A stretch of DNA of 61,078 bases, from positions 1-61,078 of IMG/VR virus record IMGVR_UViG_3300036979_000267. The stretch is one strand, 5' to 3'. The notes under the pieces were generated by a model. It saw only the letters and a program-made list of their open reading frames with translations, had not been told where the DNA came from and ran no database searches. The DNA comes from a virus. Below, piece after piece: positions 25,668 through 50,628 of this stretch. Made by a program: the position numbers and the translations under genes. Within the stretch, counting starts at the first letter, position 1, and every line of letters starts with the position of its first letter.

Positions 25668-28070
25668 CTACGTCCACGCGCCGATATTGACTCTCTCGAC
25701 TTCCCGGACGGTATTGCCCATGTACGCCCCGGACTGCTGGCCGTCCGCGTGAAGCGCTAGATACTGGAGTGCGTCACAGTTGCTCACCAGCACGCCGTTG
25801 GCATAGTACGCCCCAGCCCCCTCAACGGCTATCGCGTAGACGCAGGCGGGCTGCGCTAATGGCAGCACCTGCACACACCTTAGAGCATGTTTTTGTTTTC
25901 CGGTACTTGTTCGCTTGGAACTCTGTACCGCAAACCACGCACGTGCGCGTTTCGTCATCAACTCCGCTGGCGACTCGGGCCATGCCCTGACAACTGGGGG
26001 AGCAGAACCCCCGCTTGCGGGCTCCGGCAAAGCCGTCGTACAGCTTACCGCACTGTGTGCAGACATGCTGTTGCTTTTCCCGCCCAATCCACGTAGATTT
26101 CCCGTGCTCCCGGTGCCAAGCCAGTCCATCAGGGCTACCATGCCACTGCGCAGCGGCGAGCCGGGCCGCTGCCAGATGCTCGGGCATACCGAACGTACCG
26201 TCGGCGATGCGTTCGAGGGCATGTTGCCTGCTGTGGTCGGTGCCGAGCATGAGGGCAAGGTTTTCAAGGCGGTTGTCGCTGGTGTTTCCATTGTCGTGGT
26301 GCACGTGGTGCTTGGGGGGTATTGGCCCGTTGTGGAACTCCCACACGTACCGGTGCATGTAGACCGTGCGGCGGCCAGACTCCTCATAACCAGCTTTGTA
26401 GTACCCCCGGCCTTTGCGATAGAACCGAATGCCGTTGAAAATCTGAACCGGATGTTTTGTAGCCATGGAGCGCTCCGAGTGTGGATGCTGTCCAGTATAT
26501 CAGAATACTGGAGTGCGTCAAGCGCAACCCACCCCCGTTGTGTGAGTATGGGATGGTCGGGCGTCCCCTCAAGCACCAGCCCGTCGGACAATTCCGCGCG
26601 CACCACGGGCGCAACACGGCTGTGGACCGCTGTGACCCTCCGGGGGCCAATCGGAGTCTCCACCAAGTCCCCCACGCGCAAAAGGTCCACGTCCGTCGCG
26701 CCATCCGGGGTAGCGACGCGCGTACCAGCCACAAAGCAGATGTGAGAGGCCATGTTTTTCTCCGGCTCGTCGTCCATCTCGCCCGTTTTCTTGGCCTTGT
26801 ACCGGTACTTGCCGCGCAAACCCCCAATCAAATTTAAGCACTTGTTGTCCACAAGGAACCCCGCGCCGCCGTCCACCTGTCGGTTGAGGAACTGGTCCAC
26901 CGCCCCGATGCGGGCAATCAGGGAGTTGGTGTGGGCCGAGATAGCCGTAAACCCCTCGGCTTTCAAGATGTCGTACACCGTTTTCTCGTCGGTCTGCACC
27001 CGCGAGCGTCCAGCGGGGTCGCCGATAACGAGTATGGGCGCCCCGGGAAAGTTCTGCGCCAGTAGTGGTTTCAGTATGGTACGCACGAACCGGAGCACGC
27101 CCATGCCGTCCGAGGTGGCCTCGCCCATGACCAGCAGCCTGCCCTGCATGTCAAGCTGCCCGATGACCGCACTGGGGTTCAACCCGAAGTCCATGCCGAT
27201 GAGCACTGGCCGTACCCCGTTCAGTATGGGTCGCAGCGCGCCCTTGGCGATGTGAAAGTCGGAGTCGAACGATTTCCACACGGGCTGGCCAGACAGGCTC
27301 TTGCCGAACTTCGCGTGGATGTAAATATCTATGTATTCCTCGGATTTCCCAGTTGCGAGCGTTTCATAGTACCCTGAAGGAAGCAGGTGGAGCCAGTCTG
27401 CTTCCGGGCTCGTCCCGCTAGGTTGAATTGTCACGTGTGTGTTCGATGGGGGGTTCGTCAGCAGGCCCTCGAAGTACGTGTCCATATCGGGCGGATTCGA
27501 GGCGCCCCATAGCCGGGCATTGGGGGTTCCGTCGTCCATGACACAGCCCATGCGCGGGTTACCCTTGTCGTCCGTCCCCCATTCCGGTTTGTGGGGCACC
27601 ATCATGCCATCGGGGTATCGACCCAATCGGGCCTGCAGGGCCTCGAAGATGTCCTTGTTGAGTTCGCGGAACTCGTCAATGATGGCAAAGCTCGCTTGGA
27701 GCGACAGCAGCCGCCGTACGTCTTGGGCGTCGTCAAGGCCGCGGAACAGCACATCGCACCGAATGTCACCAACAGACAGCTCAAAGCGCATCTCGGACTT
27801 GTAGTAGGTACCCGCCTCACCGTCCGGGAACCATTTTAGGAAGTCGGGAATGCTCGTGTCACGAAGTTGTTCACGTGTGTTGCGTACGAAAATGCACCGC
27901 GAGCGGCGAAAGCCATCCTTGGCCCGGGCCATGTGCCCAGCGTGGTAAAGCAGCTTCACGATCGCGGAAGTTGTCTTTGAGCTGCCTACTGGTCCACAGA
28001 TGAACGAGATGAACTTTTCCGAGGTAAAGAACGCCTCGGTGCTCGGAACTGGGGTGAAGATCAGGCTCAT
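25668..28070 (-). CDS. terL: Terminase large subunit precursor containing an intein
   Basis: The precursor is 800 residues; removal of the intein (residues 445-764) would leave a 480-residue terminase. The ATPase part has a Walker A GPVGSSKTT at 26-34 and Walker B with FAIIDEFREL (Asp132, Glu133). The RNase H-like nuclease part includes LIGMDFGLNP and ILVIGDPAG. The intein sits after Ile444, and the Cys after it is followed directly by the DALQY motif, whose Asp is the third metal ligand of TerL nucleases. The unspliced precursor should therefore be nuclease-defective. It overlaps the small subunit gene by 4 bases. Between residues about 540 and 740 the frame is a low-complexity Ser/Thr/Pro-rich out-of-frame reading of the nested endonuclease gene. 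Confidence 0.92.
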   Translation of the reverse strand: MSLIFTPVPSTEAFFTSEKFISFICGPVGSSKTTSAIVKLLYHAGHMARAKDGFRRSRCIFVRNTREQLRDTSIPDFLKWFPDGEAGTYYKSEMRFELSVGDIRCDVLFRGLDDAQDVRRLLSLQASFAIIDEFRELNKDIFEALQARLGRYPDGMMVPHKPEWGTDDKGNPRMGCVMDDGTPNARLWGASNPPDMDTYFEGLLTNPPSNTHVTIQPSGTSPEADWLHLLPSGYYETLATGKSEEYIDIYIHAKFGKSLSGQPVWKSFDSDFHIAKGALRPILNGVRPVLIGMDFGLNPSAVIGQLDMQGRLLVMGEATSDGMGVLRFVRTILKPLLAQNFPGAPILVIGDPAGRSRVQTDEKTVYDILKAEGFTAISAHTNSLIARIGAVDQFLNRQVDGGAGFLVDNKCLNLIGGLRGKYRYKAKKTGEMDDEPEKNMASHICFVAGTRVATPDGATDVDLLRVGDLVETPIGPRRVTAVHSRVAPVVRAELSDGLVLEGTPDHPILTQRGWVALDALQYSDILDSIHTRSAPWLQNIRFRFSTAFGSIAKAGGTTKLVMRSLAAARSTCTGTCGSSTTGQYPPSTTCTTTMETPATTALKTLPSCSAPTTAGNMPSNASPTVRSVCPSIWQRPGSPLRSGMVALMDWLGTGSTGNLRGLGGKSNSMSAHSAVSCTTALPEPASGGSAPPVVRAWPESPAELMTKRARAWFAVQSSKRTSTGKQKHALRCVQVLPLAQPACVYAIAVEGAGAYYANGVLVSNCDALQYLALHADGQQSGAYMGNTVREVERVNIGAWT
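25761..25776 (-). repeat. 16-bp direct repeat, extein copy
   Basis: The coding-strand sequence TGACGCACTCCAGTAT, which encodes the start of the TerL nuclease motif DALQY, is repeated exactly at 26505-26520 inside the intein, where the intein also reads DALQY. The spacing between copies is 744 bases, a whole number of codons, and encloses the nested HNH gene and intein C-terminus. Confidence 0.9.
25822..26466 (-). CDS. HNH homing endonuclease nested out of frame in the TerL intein
   Basis: A 214-residue frame, offset by two bases from terL on the same strand, starts at an ATG with GGAG six bases upstream and ends TGA. Residues about 36-75 form an HNH_3-type module: MHRYVWEFHNGPIPPKH, then HHDNG at 56-60 and NRLENL. 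Two zinc ribbons follow, CTQC/CSPSC at 136-159 and CVVC/CSKVC at 176-198. These are definite coding signatures, whereas the intein frame over the same bases is low complexity. The gene probably makes the intein mobile by cutting intein-less terL. The last 30 or so bases also encode intein block F in the other frame, so that segment is under double constraint. Confidence 0.9.
   Translation of the reverse strand: MATKHPVQIFNGIRFYRKGRGYYKAGYEESGRRTVYMHRYVWEFHNGPIPPKHHVHHDNGNTSDNRLENLALMLGTDHSRQHALERIADGTFGMPEHLAAARLAAAQWHGSPDGLAWHREHGKSTWIGREKQQHVCTQCGKLYDGFAGARKRGFCSPSCQGMARVASGVDDETRTCVVCGTEFQANKYRKTKTCSKVCAGAAISAARLRLRDSR
26505..26520 (-). repeat. 16-bp direct repeat, intein copy
   Basis: This copy matches the extein DALQY-coding sequence at 25761-25776 exactly. 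It lies 39 bases upstream of the nested HNH start codon, at the end of the N-terminal splicing segment (GWVALDALQYSDIL). Confidence 0.9.
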
Positions 28071-33579: not shown

Positions 33580-33893
33580 AAGTCAAAGTAAACGAAGCAG
33601 TCGGCCCTGTGCTGAACTGGATGGTGGGTTGCGCACTGGACGAGTACAGCCCAAGCGCAGTACCTGAATATTCAACCGACTGGGCACAAGGCGGGCCGAT
33701 CATTGAGTGGGAGAAGATTGATCTGTACCAGTCCACTGGACGCACCTGTGCCGCGATGTGGGAGAACCTACCCGGAGGTGGAAGGCTGATCGCAGAGGCT
33801 AAAGACTGCCCCACCCCATTGATCGCGGGCATGCGCTGCTACGTTTCTTCCCGCTTAGGCGACACCGTAGAGGTTCCAGATGAGCTGGCCTAA
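33576..33893 (+). CDS. DUF2591 family protein
   Basis: The 105-residue protein matches the DUF2591 phage family: a KVNEAVGPVLNWMVGCAL start, a central WEKIDLYQS segment and a tail PLIAGMRCYVSSRLGDTVEVPDEL. Families of this kind occur in many phages without known function. Its last 17 codons are part of a duplicated junction: another, different copy of the same tail lies about 490 bases downstream in frame with the neighbouring endonuclease gene. The ATG overlaps the upstream stop by 4 bases. Confidence 0.85.
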   Translation: MKVKVNEAVGPVLNWMVGCALDEYSPSAVPEYSTDWAQGGPIIEWEKIDLYQSTGRTCAAMWENLPGGGRLIAEAKDCPTPLIAGMRCYVSSRLGDTVEVPDELA

Positions 33894-33906
33894 GACACCC
33901 ACTAAG
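33843..33906 (+). repeat. Left copy of a duplicated gene junction
   Basis: This 64-base stretch covers the DUF2591 tail, its stop and the first codons of the endonuclease gene. It aligns without gaps to 34336-34399, which covers the endonuclease tail, stop and first codons of the next gene. Identity by eye is about two thirds, with many differences at third codon positions, so the copies are old or of different origin. Confidence 0.8.
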
Positions 33907-34386
33907 CACGGCCATGCAACACGGGCAAAGGGAATTAGCCCTACATACCGGACTTGGCAGGCCATGAATACCCGCTGCACAAATGTTTCGGTCAAGTCCT
34001 ACGAAGACTACGGTGCACGGGGCATATCAGTGTACGCAGGGTGGCTCGTGTTCGAGAACTTTTTTGCCGACATGGGCGAGAAGCCTGCAGGCACAACGCT
34101 TGAGCGCATCGACAACGAGAAAGGCTACGGACCTGACAACTGCAAGTGGGCGACCAAGACGGAGCAAGCACGAAACACTCGGGCTAACAAGTTCGTCAAC
34201 TACAAAGGAAAACGTATGACGCAAGCTGAATTCGGAGAAGTCATTGGGCATAACCAATCTACAGTCAGCTACCGACTACGTGCTGGCTGGACACCTGAGC
34301 AAGTAGCCAACACACCAGCACATACAGGGAACCGTGTGGTGTCCAAGTTGGGCGAGGAAGTGGAGGTGCCTGATGAACTCGTCTAA
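33880..34386 (+). CDS. HNH-like homing endonuclease inserted at a gene junction
   Basis: The 168-residue protein contains YRTWQAMNTRCTN, a DYGARGISVYAGW segment and LERIDNEKGYGPDNCKWAT followed by EQARN, a signature shared with the endonuclease at 49637 and with many phage HNH-like endonucleases. A C-terminal helix-turn-helix-like segment (TQAEFGEVIGHNQSTVSYR) may read DNA. Its final residues, SKLGEEVEVPDEL, are a DUF2591 tail, and its first residues, MSWPKTPTK, resemble the start of the next gene (MNSSKTPPKK). It therefore uses host sequence for both start and stop. Confidence 0.85.
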   Translation: MSWPKTPTKHGHATRAKGISPTYRTWQAMNTRCTNVSVKSYEDYGARGISVYAGWLVFENFFADMGEKPAGTTLERIDNEKGYGPDNCKWATKTEQARNTRANKFVNYKGKRMTQAEFGEVIGHNQSTVSYRLRAGWTPEQVANTPAHTGNRVVSKLGEEVEVPDELV

Positions 34387-47345: not shown

Positions 47346-47665
47346 AAAACGAAAAAGATGTGAAGGCTGCTGTGAAGGCGATCATGGGCCGCCCCGTGGA
47401 CTTCCTGTGGTACTACATGCCTGCGGCCAATGGCTTCGGCACGCCGGGCATCCCGGACTTCATGGGAATCTGCTACGGCCGCGCGTTTGCCATCGAGACC
47501 AAGTTCGGTGCCGGTAAGCGCACTGCATGGCAGGAGAAGCAAGCGGACGCAATCAACTGGGCCGGAGGGCAATACTGGCTGGTGAACGAGAAGAACGTGG
47601 AGGACTTCGCTGTTTCGTTTTCGCAGTTCGCACGCGAATGCGCAGCCCGCAACGGGATCATGTAA
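47342..47665 (+). CDS. VRR-NUC domain nuclease
   Basis: The 107-residue protein has the VRR-NUC pattern: GTPGIPDFMG, then AIETKFGAG and Q-rich WQEKQADAINWAGG. Phage VRR-NUC proteins are small Holliday-junction-resolving or flap-type nucleases that often sit next to a SNF2-type helicase, exactly as here; the next gene starts one base before its stop ends. Start ATG 47342 overlaps the previous stop. Confidence 0.88.
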   Translation: MKNEKDVKAAVKAIMGRPVDFLWYYMPAANGFGTPGIPDFMGICYGRAFAIETKFGAGKRTAWQEKQADAINWAGGQYWLVNEKNVEDFAVSFSQFARECAARNGIM

Positions 47666-49662
47666 TGCTCGTAGTCCCGGCTTCCCGCAAACTCGTCATC
47701 GACTCACCCAGCTATGCGCAGGTGGCGTCGGTGATTCCCCACGCGAAGGCATTTACCCATGCTGGGCAGAACCTACTTGCGCTGCACCACGGCGTTGAAG
47801 AGTCACTGGTGCTTAAAAACTTTGGCTTTAGTGTGCCTGCGCCTATCTTGTCCTACTACTCGTGGCCTGCACGCTTTACGGCTATGGAGCATCAAAAGGA
47901 CACGGCAGCGTTTCTGACGATGAACAAGCGGGCGCTGGTGCTGAACGCGCCGGGCACTGGGAAGACCCTATCGGCCATCTGGGCTGCGGACTTCCTGCTG
48001 GACGAGGGAGTGGCCAAGCGTATTCTGATCGTGGCGCCGCTATCTACCCTGACTGTGGTGTGGGGCCGGGAGTTGTACCACCACTTACCCCACAGGGCTT
48101 TCAAGGTAGTCACAGGAGATCGGAAGAAGCGGGAAGAGTTGCTGGCCACACCCGGGTGTCAATACTTCATCATCAACCACGATGGCTTCACGAACATGCA
48201 GGACGCCCTGAAGGATTTCGACATCGTGATCTATGACGAGGCCACCGCACTAAAGTCGCCAAGCTCACAGCGGTACAAGATATTTGCGAAGTGGATGTCG
48301 AAGCACGACCCATGGCTGTGGATGCTGACGGGGACACCCATCTCCCAGAGCCCTGCGGACGCATGGACACTTGCGCGCCTTGTGAATTCACCGGCGTGCC
48401 CGAAGAGCTACACCACGTTCAAGGATATGGTGATGCAGAAAATTACGACGTTCAAGTGGGCCGCGCGGCCGGACGCCCTGACGACATGCAAGAAGATTTT
48501 GCAGCCGTCGATTCGCTTTTCGCTGGACGAGTGCAAGGACTTGCCAGACACGAATTTTGTGGGGCGCAAGACCACGCTGACGCTGCAACAGAAGAAGGCG
48601 TTCAAGGAGATGCAGGAGAAGGCGGTGACGTTTTTCTCTGGCGCGGAGGTATCCGCACCGAACGCTGCAGTGGTGCTGGCCAAGCTATTACAAATCTGCT
48701 GCATAGCGGGCGATACGGATGTGCTAACCGGGAGGGGGTGGGTGCCCATACAGACCGTTACTCCGTTGGACATTGTGTGGGATGGGGCGGAGTGGGTAAC
48801 CTGCGCCGGGTCTGCGCTACAAGGGTATAAGACTGTGGTGGACTGCGCGGGTGTGTTCATGACGCCCGACCACAAAGTCCTTTCGACAGCAGGGTGGGTA
48901 GAGGCGAGGGAGTTTTTGTATGGCGAATCACGCAGTAGACCTACTAGGGCAGACGTTCGGGTTCCTGACGGTGCTGTCCCGAGCAGAGCCACCCACGGGG
49001 AAATCCAAGACCGCCCGAATTTCCCGCGGGGACCCGGACCCACTGCGGCGGGTCCGGTAGCTGTGTATGACGTGCTGAACTGTGGCCCGAGAAATCGTTT
49101 TGTGGTGCGCGGACGCAACGGGGAACTAAGCATCGTGCACAACTGTGGCGTAGTTTATTCTGACACAGATCGAGTTGAAATAGATGCCAGTGACAGGTAT
49201 AATACGTTCACCGAATTGCTCGATGAAATAGGCGGCAAGGTAATAGTGTTTTGCCCTTTACGGGGAGTGCAGGATTGGTTGGAAACGTCATTGCGCAAAG
49301 GTGGCTACGATGTGGCATCTGTGCATGGCGGTGTGAGTAAGACAGCGCGTAATCAGATATTTAATGACTTTCAGCATACAAGCGGCATTCAGGTTTTGCT
49401 GGCACACCCCAAGGTGGCCGCGCACGGACTGACGCTGACGGCGGCGAAGGACATTATCTGGTTTGCCCCTATCTACTCACTGGAGCAGTATGAACAAGCC
49501 TGTGCTAGAATACGTAGGCTGAGTACAGAAGGCAAGACGACGGTGTGGCATTTGTACGCAACACCATTTGAGGCGGAGCTTTACAGGCGACTCCACCAGA
49601 AACGAAAAGTGCTTGGGGACTTTTTGGACTTAGTAAATGGAACGAACGACGACTCTGATTGA
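47665..49662 (+). CDS. SNF2/DEAD-type helicase precursor containing a mini-intein
   Basis: The 665-residue precursor has motif I LNAPGTGKTLSAIW (about 93-106), motif II IYDEAT, motif III MLTGTP and motif VI-like QACARIRRLSTEGKT near the end. The intein occupies residues 346-493 (148 residues) after LLQIC, so the mature enzyme is 517 residues. It is a superfamily 2 phage helicase of the kind found beside VRR-NUC nucleases. The start ATG 47665 overlaps the preceding stop codon by one base. The 3' end overlaps the next endonuclease gene. Confidence 0.9.
   Translation: MLVVPASRKLVIDSPSYAQVASVIPHAKAFTHAGQNLLALHHGVEESLVLKNFGFSVPAPILSYYSWPARFTAMEHQKDTAAFLTMNKRALVLNAPGTGKTLSAIWAADFLLDEGVAKRILIVAPLSTLTVVWGRELYHHLPHRAFKVVTGDRKKREELLATPGCQYFIINHDGFTNMQDALKDFDIVIYDEATALKSPSSQRYKIFAKWMSKHDPWLWMLTGTPISQSPADAWTLARLVNSPACPKSYTTFKDMVMQKITTFKWAARPDALTTCKKILQPSIRFSLDECKDLPDTNFVGRKTTLTLQQKKAFKEMQEKAVTFFSGAEVSAPNAAVVLAKLLQICCIAGDTDVLTGRGWVPIQTVTPLDIVWDGAEWVTCAGSALQGYKTVVDCAGVFMTPDHKVLSTAGWVEAREFLYGESRSRPTRADVRVPDGAVPSRATHGEIQDRPNFPRGPGPTAAGPVAVYDVLNCGPRNRFVVRGRNGELSIVHNCGVVYSDTDRVEIDASDRYNTFTELLDEIGGKVIVFCPLRGVQDWLETSLRKGGYDVASVHGGVSKTARNQIFNDFQHTSGIQVLLAHPKVAAHGLTLTAAKDIIWFAPIYSLEQYEQACARIRRLSTEGKTTVWHLYATPFEAELYRRLHQKRKVLGDFLDLVNGTNDDSD
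48700..49143 (+). mobile_element. Helicase mini-intein (148 aa)
   Basis: Block A is CIAGDTDVLTGRGWVPI beginning at Cys346 (codon 48700-48702). Block B is VFMTPDHKVLS with TxxH. Block F is VYDVLNCGPRNRFVV and the end is SIVHN before Cys+1 (TGT 49144-49146). All four catalytic positions (Cys1, TxxH, terminal His-Asn, Cys+1) are intact, so splicing is likely. Between block B and F only about 45 residues are left where an endonuclease would be, and these coincide with an out-of-frame endonuclease remnant. Confidence 0.9.
48920..49060 (+). pseudogene. Truncated out-of-frame endonuclease remnant inside the helicase intein
   Basis: In the plus-one frame relative to the helicase, ATG 48920 (with GGGAG eight bases upstream) opens 46 codons ending TAG. 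The start, MANHAVDLLGQTFGFLTVLS, matches the opening of the endonuclease at 49637 (DLAGQRFGALQV) and of many phage endonucleases with the pattern LxGQxFGxLTV. The zinc-binding and catalytic parts are missing. It is read as the surviving 5' end of a nested homing gene, the rest of which was deleted while the intein frame stayed open. Confidence 0.8.
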
Positions 49663-50224
49663 CCTCGCGGGGCAGCGGTTTGGGGCGCTACAAGTGTGGT
49701 GCCGCCTACCGAATCGGGGGCGCGCCGTGTATTGGTTTTGTGTATGCGACTGCGGCGCTACTGCAGAGTGCTCGTCTGGTAACTTGCGCGGCGGCAAGTC
49801 TCGTAGCTGCGGATGCGTCCGCACAAGGCACGGCGGCTGGAAGAGCAAAGAGTATGCGAGTTGGCGACACATGCGCCAACGATGCGACAACCCAGAGCAC
49901 GCGGCGTACCGCAACTATGGTGGTCGGGGCATAACGTACTGCGCCGCTTGGGATGACTTCGCAGTGTTCTTGTCGGACATGGGTGCTGCGCCAGCGGGTG
50001 GGACACTGGAGAGAATCGACAACAACAAAGGGTATGCCCCCGATAACTGTCGGTGGGCCACGAAGAAAGAGCAAGGGCGCAACCGGCGTACGAATACGCT
50101 GAATACCGATACCGCGCGGCAAATACGCGCAGCGGACGGAGACCAGCAGGGGATTGCGAAACGCTTCGGTGTTTCGCAAGCGACAGTGAGTAGGGTTAAA
50201 AATTGTAAACAGTGGAACTATTAA
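49637..50224 (+). CDS. HNH-like endonuclease adjoining the helicase gene
   Basis: The 195-residue protein starts inside the last codons of the helicase gene. It has DLAGQRFGALQV, a zinc-binding CVCDCG and CGCVR pair, then YASWRHMRQRCDNPEH, NYGGRGITYCAAWDDF and LERIDNNKGYAPDNCRWAT with EQGRNRR, the same core as the 33880 protein. The C-terminus is a helix-turn-helix-like segment (GDQQGIAKRFGVSQATVSR). A complete member of the family whose remnant lies in the neighbouring intein; it may now serve that intein's mobility. Confidence 0.85.
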   Translation: MERTTTLIDLAGQRFGALQVWCRLPNRGRAVYWFCVCDCGATAECSSGNLRGGKSRSCGCVRTRHGGWKSKEYASWRHMRQRCDNPEHAAYRNYGGRGITYCAAWDDFAVFLSDMGAAPAGGTLERIDNNKGYAPDNCRWATKKEQGRNRRTNTLNTDTARQIRAADGDQQGIAKRFGVSQATVSRVKNCKQWNY

Positions 50225-50235
50225 GGAGAAATCAA

Positions 50236-50628
50236 TTGAACTTTGAACAAGCAGGCGAAAAATATATCGCCCTTCGCAATGAGGTAGCAGCCATTGAAGC
50301 CGAGGCCAAGACCGCTGTGGCCGAGAAAAAGGCCACCATGCTGGACCTCGAAAACTGGTTTACTTTGCGCGCCCAAGAAGAGGGCATGGTGAAGATTCCA
50401 ACATCAGTGGGGACCGCGTATTGGTCCACACACAATGCCGCAACAGTTGCTGACCGCAATGCGTTGTTCGAGTTCTGCAAAGAAAACAACACGTGGGATT
50501 TGATTGAATCCCGCGCGTCAAAAACCGCCGTGAAAAGTTATGTTGAAGGCCACGGTGTACCCCCGCCCGGAGTGAATTTCTCTTCCGTGCAAGTCTTCAA
50601 TTTCCGTAAAACCACCTCAAAGGAATAA
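50236..50628 (+). CDS. Conserved phage protein beside the ssDNA-binding protein
   Basis: The TTG at 50236 has AAGGAG seven bases upstream, giving 130 residues. The N-terminal half is a coiled coil (YIALRNEVAAIEAEAKTAVAE split by a turn). The C-terminal half contains VGTAYWSTHNAATVADR and PPPGVNFSSVQVFNFRK, a pattern seen beside phage ssDNA-binding proteins. It probably belongs to the replication complex, but no activity is assigned. Confidence 0.65.
   Translation: MNFEQAGEKYIALRNEVAAIEAEAKTAVAEKKATMLDLENWFTLRAQEEGMVKIPTSVGTAYWSTHNAATVADRNALFEFCKENNTWDLIESRASKTAVKSYVEGHGVPPPGVNFSSVQVFNFRKTTSKE

Follow-up and report, generated by a model that had tools for sequence, protein, structure and literature searches.

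Intein classes were given in a review as full-length inteins with an embedded endonuclease domain, mini-inteins and split inteins only (PMC7765530), and in a phage genome paper a mismatch in reading frame was taken to exclude inteins (PMC3185647). Hidden out-of-frame HNH insertions that leave the host frame open were reported in 2025 for the ShiLan domain and for Pacc40 gp60 (PMC11855218). Such an out-of-frame HNH without a splicing element is the closest precedent that we found in the literature. The ShiLan and Pacc40 inserts lack an intein or intron splicing element, and inspection of the Pacc40 insert showed no intein blocks. In our tree, the HNH of Pacc40 gp60 (L194, from a Mycobacterium phage, at an offset of +2) belonged to the same broad family as the nested intein genes described below.

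Two GenBank entries hold a polymerase intein overlapped by an HNH gene that is read in a different frame, as in the locus studied here: P45/P46 of Hamiltonella phage APSE-1 and gp38/gp39 of Sodalis phage SO-1. They are annotated merely as overlapping genes, SO-1 as an intron, and a description of this arrangement as an intein class was not found in the literature searched. The nested HNH in the SO-1 polymerase intein (L003) was annotated as a type I self-splicing intron, which is probably a misannotation. Free-standing HNHs of phrog_374, such as orf78 of phage D3, belong with the nested genes in one broad family but lie outside splicing elements and outside the nested clade.

In this study, we analyzed a 61-kb IMG/VR virus record (61,078 nucleotides, called the window) in which a helicase gene carries a mini-intein and, within it, the remnant of an HNH gene in a shifted frame. 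Canonical full-length inteins resemble this system in their Hint domain, in endonuclease DNA between blocks B and F, in precise insertion and in decay to mini-inteins. Their endonuclease is a fused in-frame domain, whereas here it is a separate +1-frame gene and therefore cannot be part of the precursor protein. In contrast to the ShiLan and Pacc40 inserts, the present insert has all intein blocks; because it is an intein, splicing is predicted to restore the host protein. We found that a mobility gene nested in a shifted frame is widespread among inteins and little described in the literature found.

The helicase mini-intein and its insertion site

The features of the locus and of the terL intein used for comparison are listed in Table 1. 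The true start of the helicase gene may lie downstream of 47527. The uninvaded helicase of Pseudomonas phage Rollin is 38% identical to the window helicase. In uninvaded helicases the two flanks are joined without a gap, as KLLQLSLGAIY in Rollin and KLLQVATGWVY in Rhizobium phage RHph, compared with KLLQIC/CGVVY in the window (the slash marks the insertion point). The insertion is precise and uninvaded homologs exist, as expected of an intein.

Table 1. Features of the helicase locus and of the terL intein in the window
Feature	Position	Strand	Basis
SNF2-type phage DNA helicase, intein host gene	47527..49662	+	phrog_62 E=6.8e-91; Pfam SNF2-rel_dom and Helicase_C
Mini-intein, 148 aa, Cys1...His147-Asn148, Cys at +1	48700..49143	+	in frame with helicase
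Intein block B, GVFMTPDHKVL, with T55 and H58	48850..48882	+	T55/H58 invariant in alignment A3
Shine-Dalgarno-like AGGGAG, 7 nt 5' of remnant ATG	48907..48912	+	sequence
Remnant of nested HNH-family gene, 46-codon +1-frame ORF	48920..49060	+	profile homology, L102 alignment
8-bp inverted repeat CCGGACCC/GGGTCCGG, putative junction region left by deletion	49034..49057	+	sequence
Intein block F, VYDVLNCGPRNRFVV	49063..49107	+	intein alignment
Intein block G and +1 Cys, LSIVHN/C	49126..49146	+	sequence, intein alignment
Free-standing complete HNH gene (P0003), phrog_374 family	49637..50224	+	phrog_374 E=2e-55
terL intein, 320 aa, comparison element	25779..26738	-	sequence
Complete nested HNH_3 gene, 214 aa, +2 frame of terL intein	25822..26466	-	Pfam PF13392 E=1.8e-15

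A first-pass annotation had described the splicing residues as intact, and this was borne out. C1, T55, H58, D124, H147 and N148 are invariant across the window and same-site inteins, and the +1 Cys is present. Block B contains TPDH and block F reads VYDVLNCGPRNRF. The mini-intein is 41-54% identical to same-site full-length inteins. An AlphaFold2 model gave a Hint fold with a mean pLDDT of 74, above 80 in most of the splicing domain. Most of residues 1-74 and 120-148 was modeled with good confidence; the segment at residues 80-116, which is coded by the remnant DNA, was predicted to be disordered. All PDB matches of high probability to the model were inteins, with DnaB mini-inteins first (best E 6e-4). 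By its residues and its modeled fold, the insert is a class 1 mini-intein, and it is predicted to splice. Homology to an endonuclease was found in the +1 frame only and not as an in-frame domain of a full-length intein.

The inteins of related helicases (L012-L091) occupied three neighboring points a few codons apart, K/CLQ, LQF/CNG and LLQIS/CG. The polymerase inteins in the same range likewise occupied GGK/CVEN, GGKL/CEN and EN/C[VT]Q. Both sets lay nearly always before a Cys, which looks like site sliding inside one target region.

A remnant of an HNH gene in the +1 frame

The remnant begins with an ATG at intein codon 74, ends with TAG and is translated as MANHAVDLLGQTFGFLTVLSRAEPPTGKSKTARISRGDPDPLRRVR. 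The ribosome site assigned to it in the first-pass annotation is present (Table 1). The length of the open frame is expected by chance (P 0.65-0.81) and was rejected as evidence for an endonuclease; an ATG at this position was also unremarkable under resampling (P 0.44). Against PHROGs, phrog_374 (HNH endonuclease) was the sole match, and a weak one (E=0.21), over profile positions 192-215; the match of P0003, a complete member of the family, starts there as well. Searches against Pfam and NCBIfam gave no match to the remnant.

A custom profile was then built from 64 non-redundant nested relatives. The remnant scored 15.7 bits against it (E=6e-4) and ranked third among 1500 six-frame segments of the window, outscored by only two genes, both full HNHs of the family. 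The family profile is matched by residues 1-26, which carry its N-terminal motif D-L-x-G-Q-x-F-G-x-L-T-V (14.6-15.7 bits) and are followed by unrelated codons before the TAG. Homology likely extends to about residue 33. As a null, the DNA was recoded with the intein protein unchanged, by 3000 synonymous resamplings and 3000 permutations. The remnant score was reached in neither set (0/3000 each), with maxima of 8.6 and 7.4 bits, and 0/3000 recodings reached it when the profile was made from relatives outside the helicase group alone. These results agree with the earlier proposal that 46 codons between blocks B and F encode the start of an endonuclease, whose homology is clear in a profile search. 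The zinc-ribbon cysteines and the HNH catalytic region, present in intact relatives, are missing, and therefore the remnant is not an endonuclease.

Nested HNH genes in related inteins

With only the mini-intein as query, one locus was recovered, and an alignment query was needed to find more. The intein-alignment search of IMG/VR gave 241 stretches encoding relatives, of which 80 were fetched; the relatives counted in IMG/VR came to 506. In 80/80 of those fetched, the intein contained a +1-frame ORF of 100 codons or more, although this set over-represents intact nested genes because it was found with full-length queries. The HNH marker motif was present in nearly all, about 78 of the 80 (77 rows and the two-segment L070). 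Intact nested ORFs typically had 180-240 codons; their starts lay downstream of block B, near intein codons 61-76, and they stopped inside block F or shortly past it. The hosts were mostly helicases and family A DNA polymerases. The longer same-site helicase inteins anticipated by the first-pass annotation do exist. Such orthologs (among them L024, L025, L028, L031, L033, L084, L102, L140 and L168) have KLLQIS, KLLQVS, KLLQLS or KLLQIC, then C...HN, then CG, and each holds a complete +1-frame HNH of roughly 205-245 codons.

Among isolated phages, a +1 nested gene was found in Caulobacter GB2A, Hamiltonella APSE-1 and Shewanella SFCi1, and a +2 nested gene in Sodalis SO-1, Vibrio 97.13, Salmonella S55 and Pseudomonas MR14. 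Fifteen loci were on bacterial genome contigs, many with the nested gene. The viral contigs of L084, L019, L032, L038 and L077 each had two inteins with a nested out-of-frame HNH in both. Of 71 relatives, only 32 had a Shine-Dalgarno-like motif ahead of the nearest start, and for many relatives it is uncertain which codon is the start. By its PHROG annotation, the nested family is a putative nuclease family. A Foldseek search of the nested HNH model against the PDB gave no significant fold match, and no sequence relative of the family with a solved structure was found.

We examined the two reading frames of the nested stretch. Over about 210 HNH codons, the intein frame had no stop in 63/63 non-redundant full-length relatives, compared with a mean of 7.1 per sequence expected from synonymous permutation of HNH codons, and a readable intein frame was partly built into the relative search. 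In all 910 of 910 pairs, conservation was higher in the HNH frame than in the intein frame read from the same DNA; the pairs are non-independent but unanimous in direction. Mean pairwise identity was 0.56 in the HNH frame, 0.30 in the intein-frame linker and 0.54 in the splicing block, and substitutions in the nested stretch piled up at HNH third positions. On the simplest reading of these patterns, the HNH would be the selected product, and the intein-frame reading would be a spacer that needs only to stay open.

The terL intein of the window was compared with the helicase intein. The first-pass annotation had reported two inteins in one genome with nested genes of two HNH families, and both were found, as a phrog_374 remnant and an HNH_3 gene. 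It had also placed the two nested genes at the same position. This holds for the compartment, after block B and before the C-terminal blocks, but not for the frame, +2 in terL, or for the start, at intein codon 91 in terL and 74 in the helicase. With this frame and a different HNH family, an identical architecture was rejected. In the nested region of the terL relatives L196/L197 (71% identity), the HNH frame was 86% identical and the intein frame 61%. An identical terL intein was present in IMG/VR contig 3300036978_000113 (L195).

In a tree of 59 HNH sequences, the +1-frame phrog_374 HNHs of helicase and polymerase inteins formed one clade (SH-aLRT 99) with all sampled members except L077, a long branch whose placement is unsure. 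The +2-frame HNHs of other polymerase inteins formed a separate clade (SH-aLRT 100), and the free-standing HNHs, including the two of the window, fell outside the +1 clade. The second of these two (33880-34386, + strand) is an HNH of the same broad family without the N-terminal domain, matching profile positions 81-216 only. The start codon of P0003 lies within the 3' end of the helicase gene that carries the intein; from its place outside the nested clade, its origin as a relocated nested gene was unsupported. The tree suggests that the +1-frame nested HNHs of helicases and polymerases came from one capture. Together with the separate +2 polymerase clade and the terL HNH_3, this suggests at least three captures, the exact number being uncertain with the long branches and quick search of this tree. 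The repeated mode of intein invasion proposed in the first-pass annotation is thus retained in a modified form, since all +1-frame phrog_374 HNHs appear to count as one capture.

Probable decay of the nested gene and alternative explanations

The nearest relative of the window intein is L102, which is inserted at the same site, has a complete HNH and is 61% identical over the splicing domain. In a splicing-domain tree, mostly of weak support and used solely to place the window intein, the window was sister to L102 (support 87/85) among full-length same-site inteins. The DNA of the two aligned without a gap over the first 287 nt, a stretch that takes in the HNH start, and aligned once more over some 88 nt at the end, with a net in-frame loss of 474 nt, a multiple of three, in the window. 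A clear 5' limit came from L102 only; in global DNA alignments with more distant relatives the breakpoints were inconsistent. Since the window intein lies among full-length same-site inteins, loss is the simplest origin for the remnant. At least eight other mini-inteins had significant N- or C-terminal pieces of a +1-frame HNH (L096/L097, L099, L118, L121, L126, L128, L151 and L169), and no such fragment was detected in the mini-inteins L009, L114, L127, L163 and L186. By these fragments, other mini-inteins show the same decay, and the helicase intein fits the decay stage proposed for it in the first-pass annotation.

We consider it very probable that the mini-intein derives from an intein of about 306 aa with a separate +1-frame HNH homing gene, and that the remnant is a fossil of its deletion. 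In the ancestor, the homing-endonuclease gene would have lain between blocks B and F, and the HNH of the intact form would be translated from a start codon of its own within the intein. We infer that the expressed HNH would cleave helicase genes that lack an intein, whose repair would insert a copy of the intein along with its nested gene. The intein would protect the host protein by splicing itself out, and the nested stretch, read in the intein frame, would be a linker free of stops that separates the halves of the splicing domain. About 474 nt net would have been deleted in the window; this would have removed the zinc-ribbon and nuclease parts with the splicing frame kept and left the first 26-33 HNH codons as a fossil. 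Loss of the nuclease would be tolerated because splicing is predicted to be unaffected.

Several other explanations were weighed. That the +1-frame similarity arose by chance, or as a by-product of the conserved intein-frame motif RADVRVPDG, would agree with the short match, its weak PHROGs score and the chance-expected open run and start codon. However, none of the 6000 intein-preserving recodings reached the remnant score, same-site orthologs have full genes at the same place, and the intein frame of the nested stretch is more variable than the HNH frame, so that we regard this origin as extremely improbable. We give the same small weight to the idea that the mini-intein represents gene capture at an early stage, with no more than the 5' part of the HNH ever acquired, since the window intein nests among full-length same-site inteins with L102 as its sister, and other mini-inteins keep both HNH ends, as internal deletion predicts. 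The GenBank note on SO-1 gp39 raises a self-splicing intron with an HNH gene as another reading of the insert. Yet the insert is open in frame with all intein residues and a Hint fold, and no Rfam match, including a group I ribozyme core, was obtained across 47500-50400 even at E=1; the intron reading is refuted for this locus, and its probability is close to nil.

The 46-codon ORF could also encode a functional small protein, for example a regulator retained after the deletion, as it has kept a start codon and a Shine-Dalgarno-like site. This is very improbable, because the zinc-ribbon and nuclease residues invariant in alignment A4 are all gone, homology was undetected in the tail past about residue 33, and different fragments are kept by other mini-inteins. 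Less readily dismissed, though still unlikely, is that the intein continues to home in trans through P0003. Free-standing endonucleases that target an intron site are a known mode; P0003 is a complete phrog_374 HNH and overlaps the 3' end of the invaded gene, and such a gene was not annotated beside the uninvaded helicases checked. On the other hand, P0003 lies outside the clade of intein-nested HNHs, in the same-site orthologs covered by a profile scan no free-standing family member turned up immediately downstream, and such genes are common across phages.

Decay of a nested homing gene is thus the reading that we prefer for the window intein. More broadly, it is likely that phage inteins repeatedly took up an endonuclease as an overlapping shifted-frame gene, that the +1 HNH type spans helicase and polymerase inteins, and that many mini-inteins are its deletion products with fossils inside. 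Should inteins often carry their endonuclease as an overlapping gene of its own, their mobility would be under-annotated. The nuclease could then change and disappear with the splicing domain left unaffected, and past mobility could be read from the hidden frames of mini-inteins. Inteins with a nested HNH would also provide a natural example of dense dual coding in phages that lends itself to testing.
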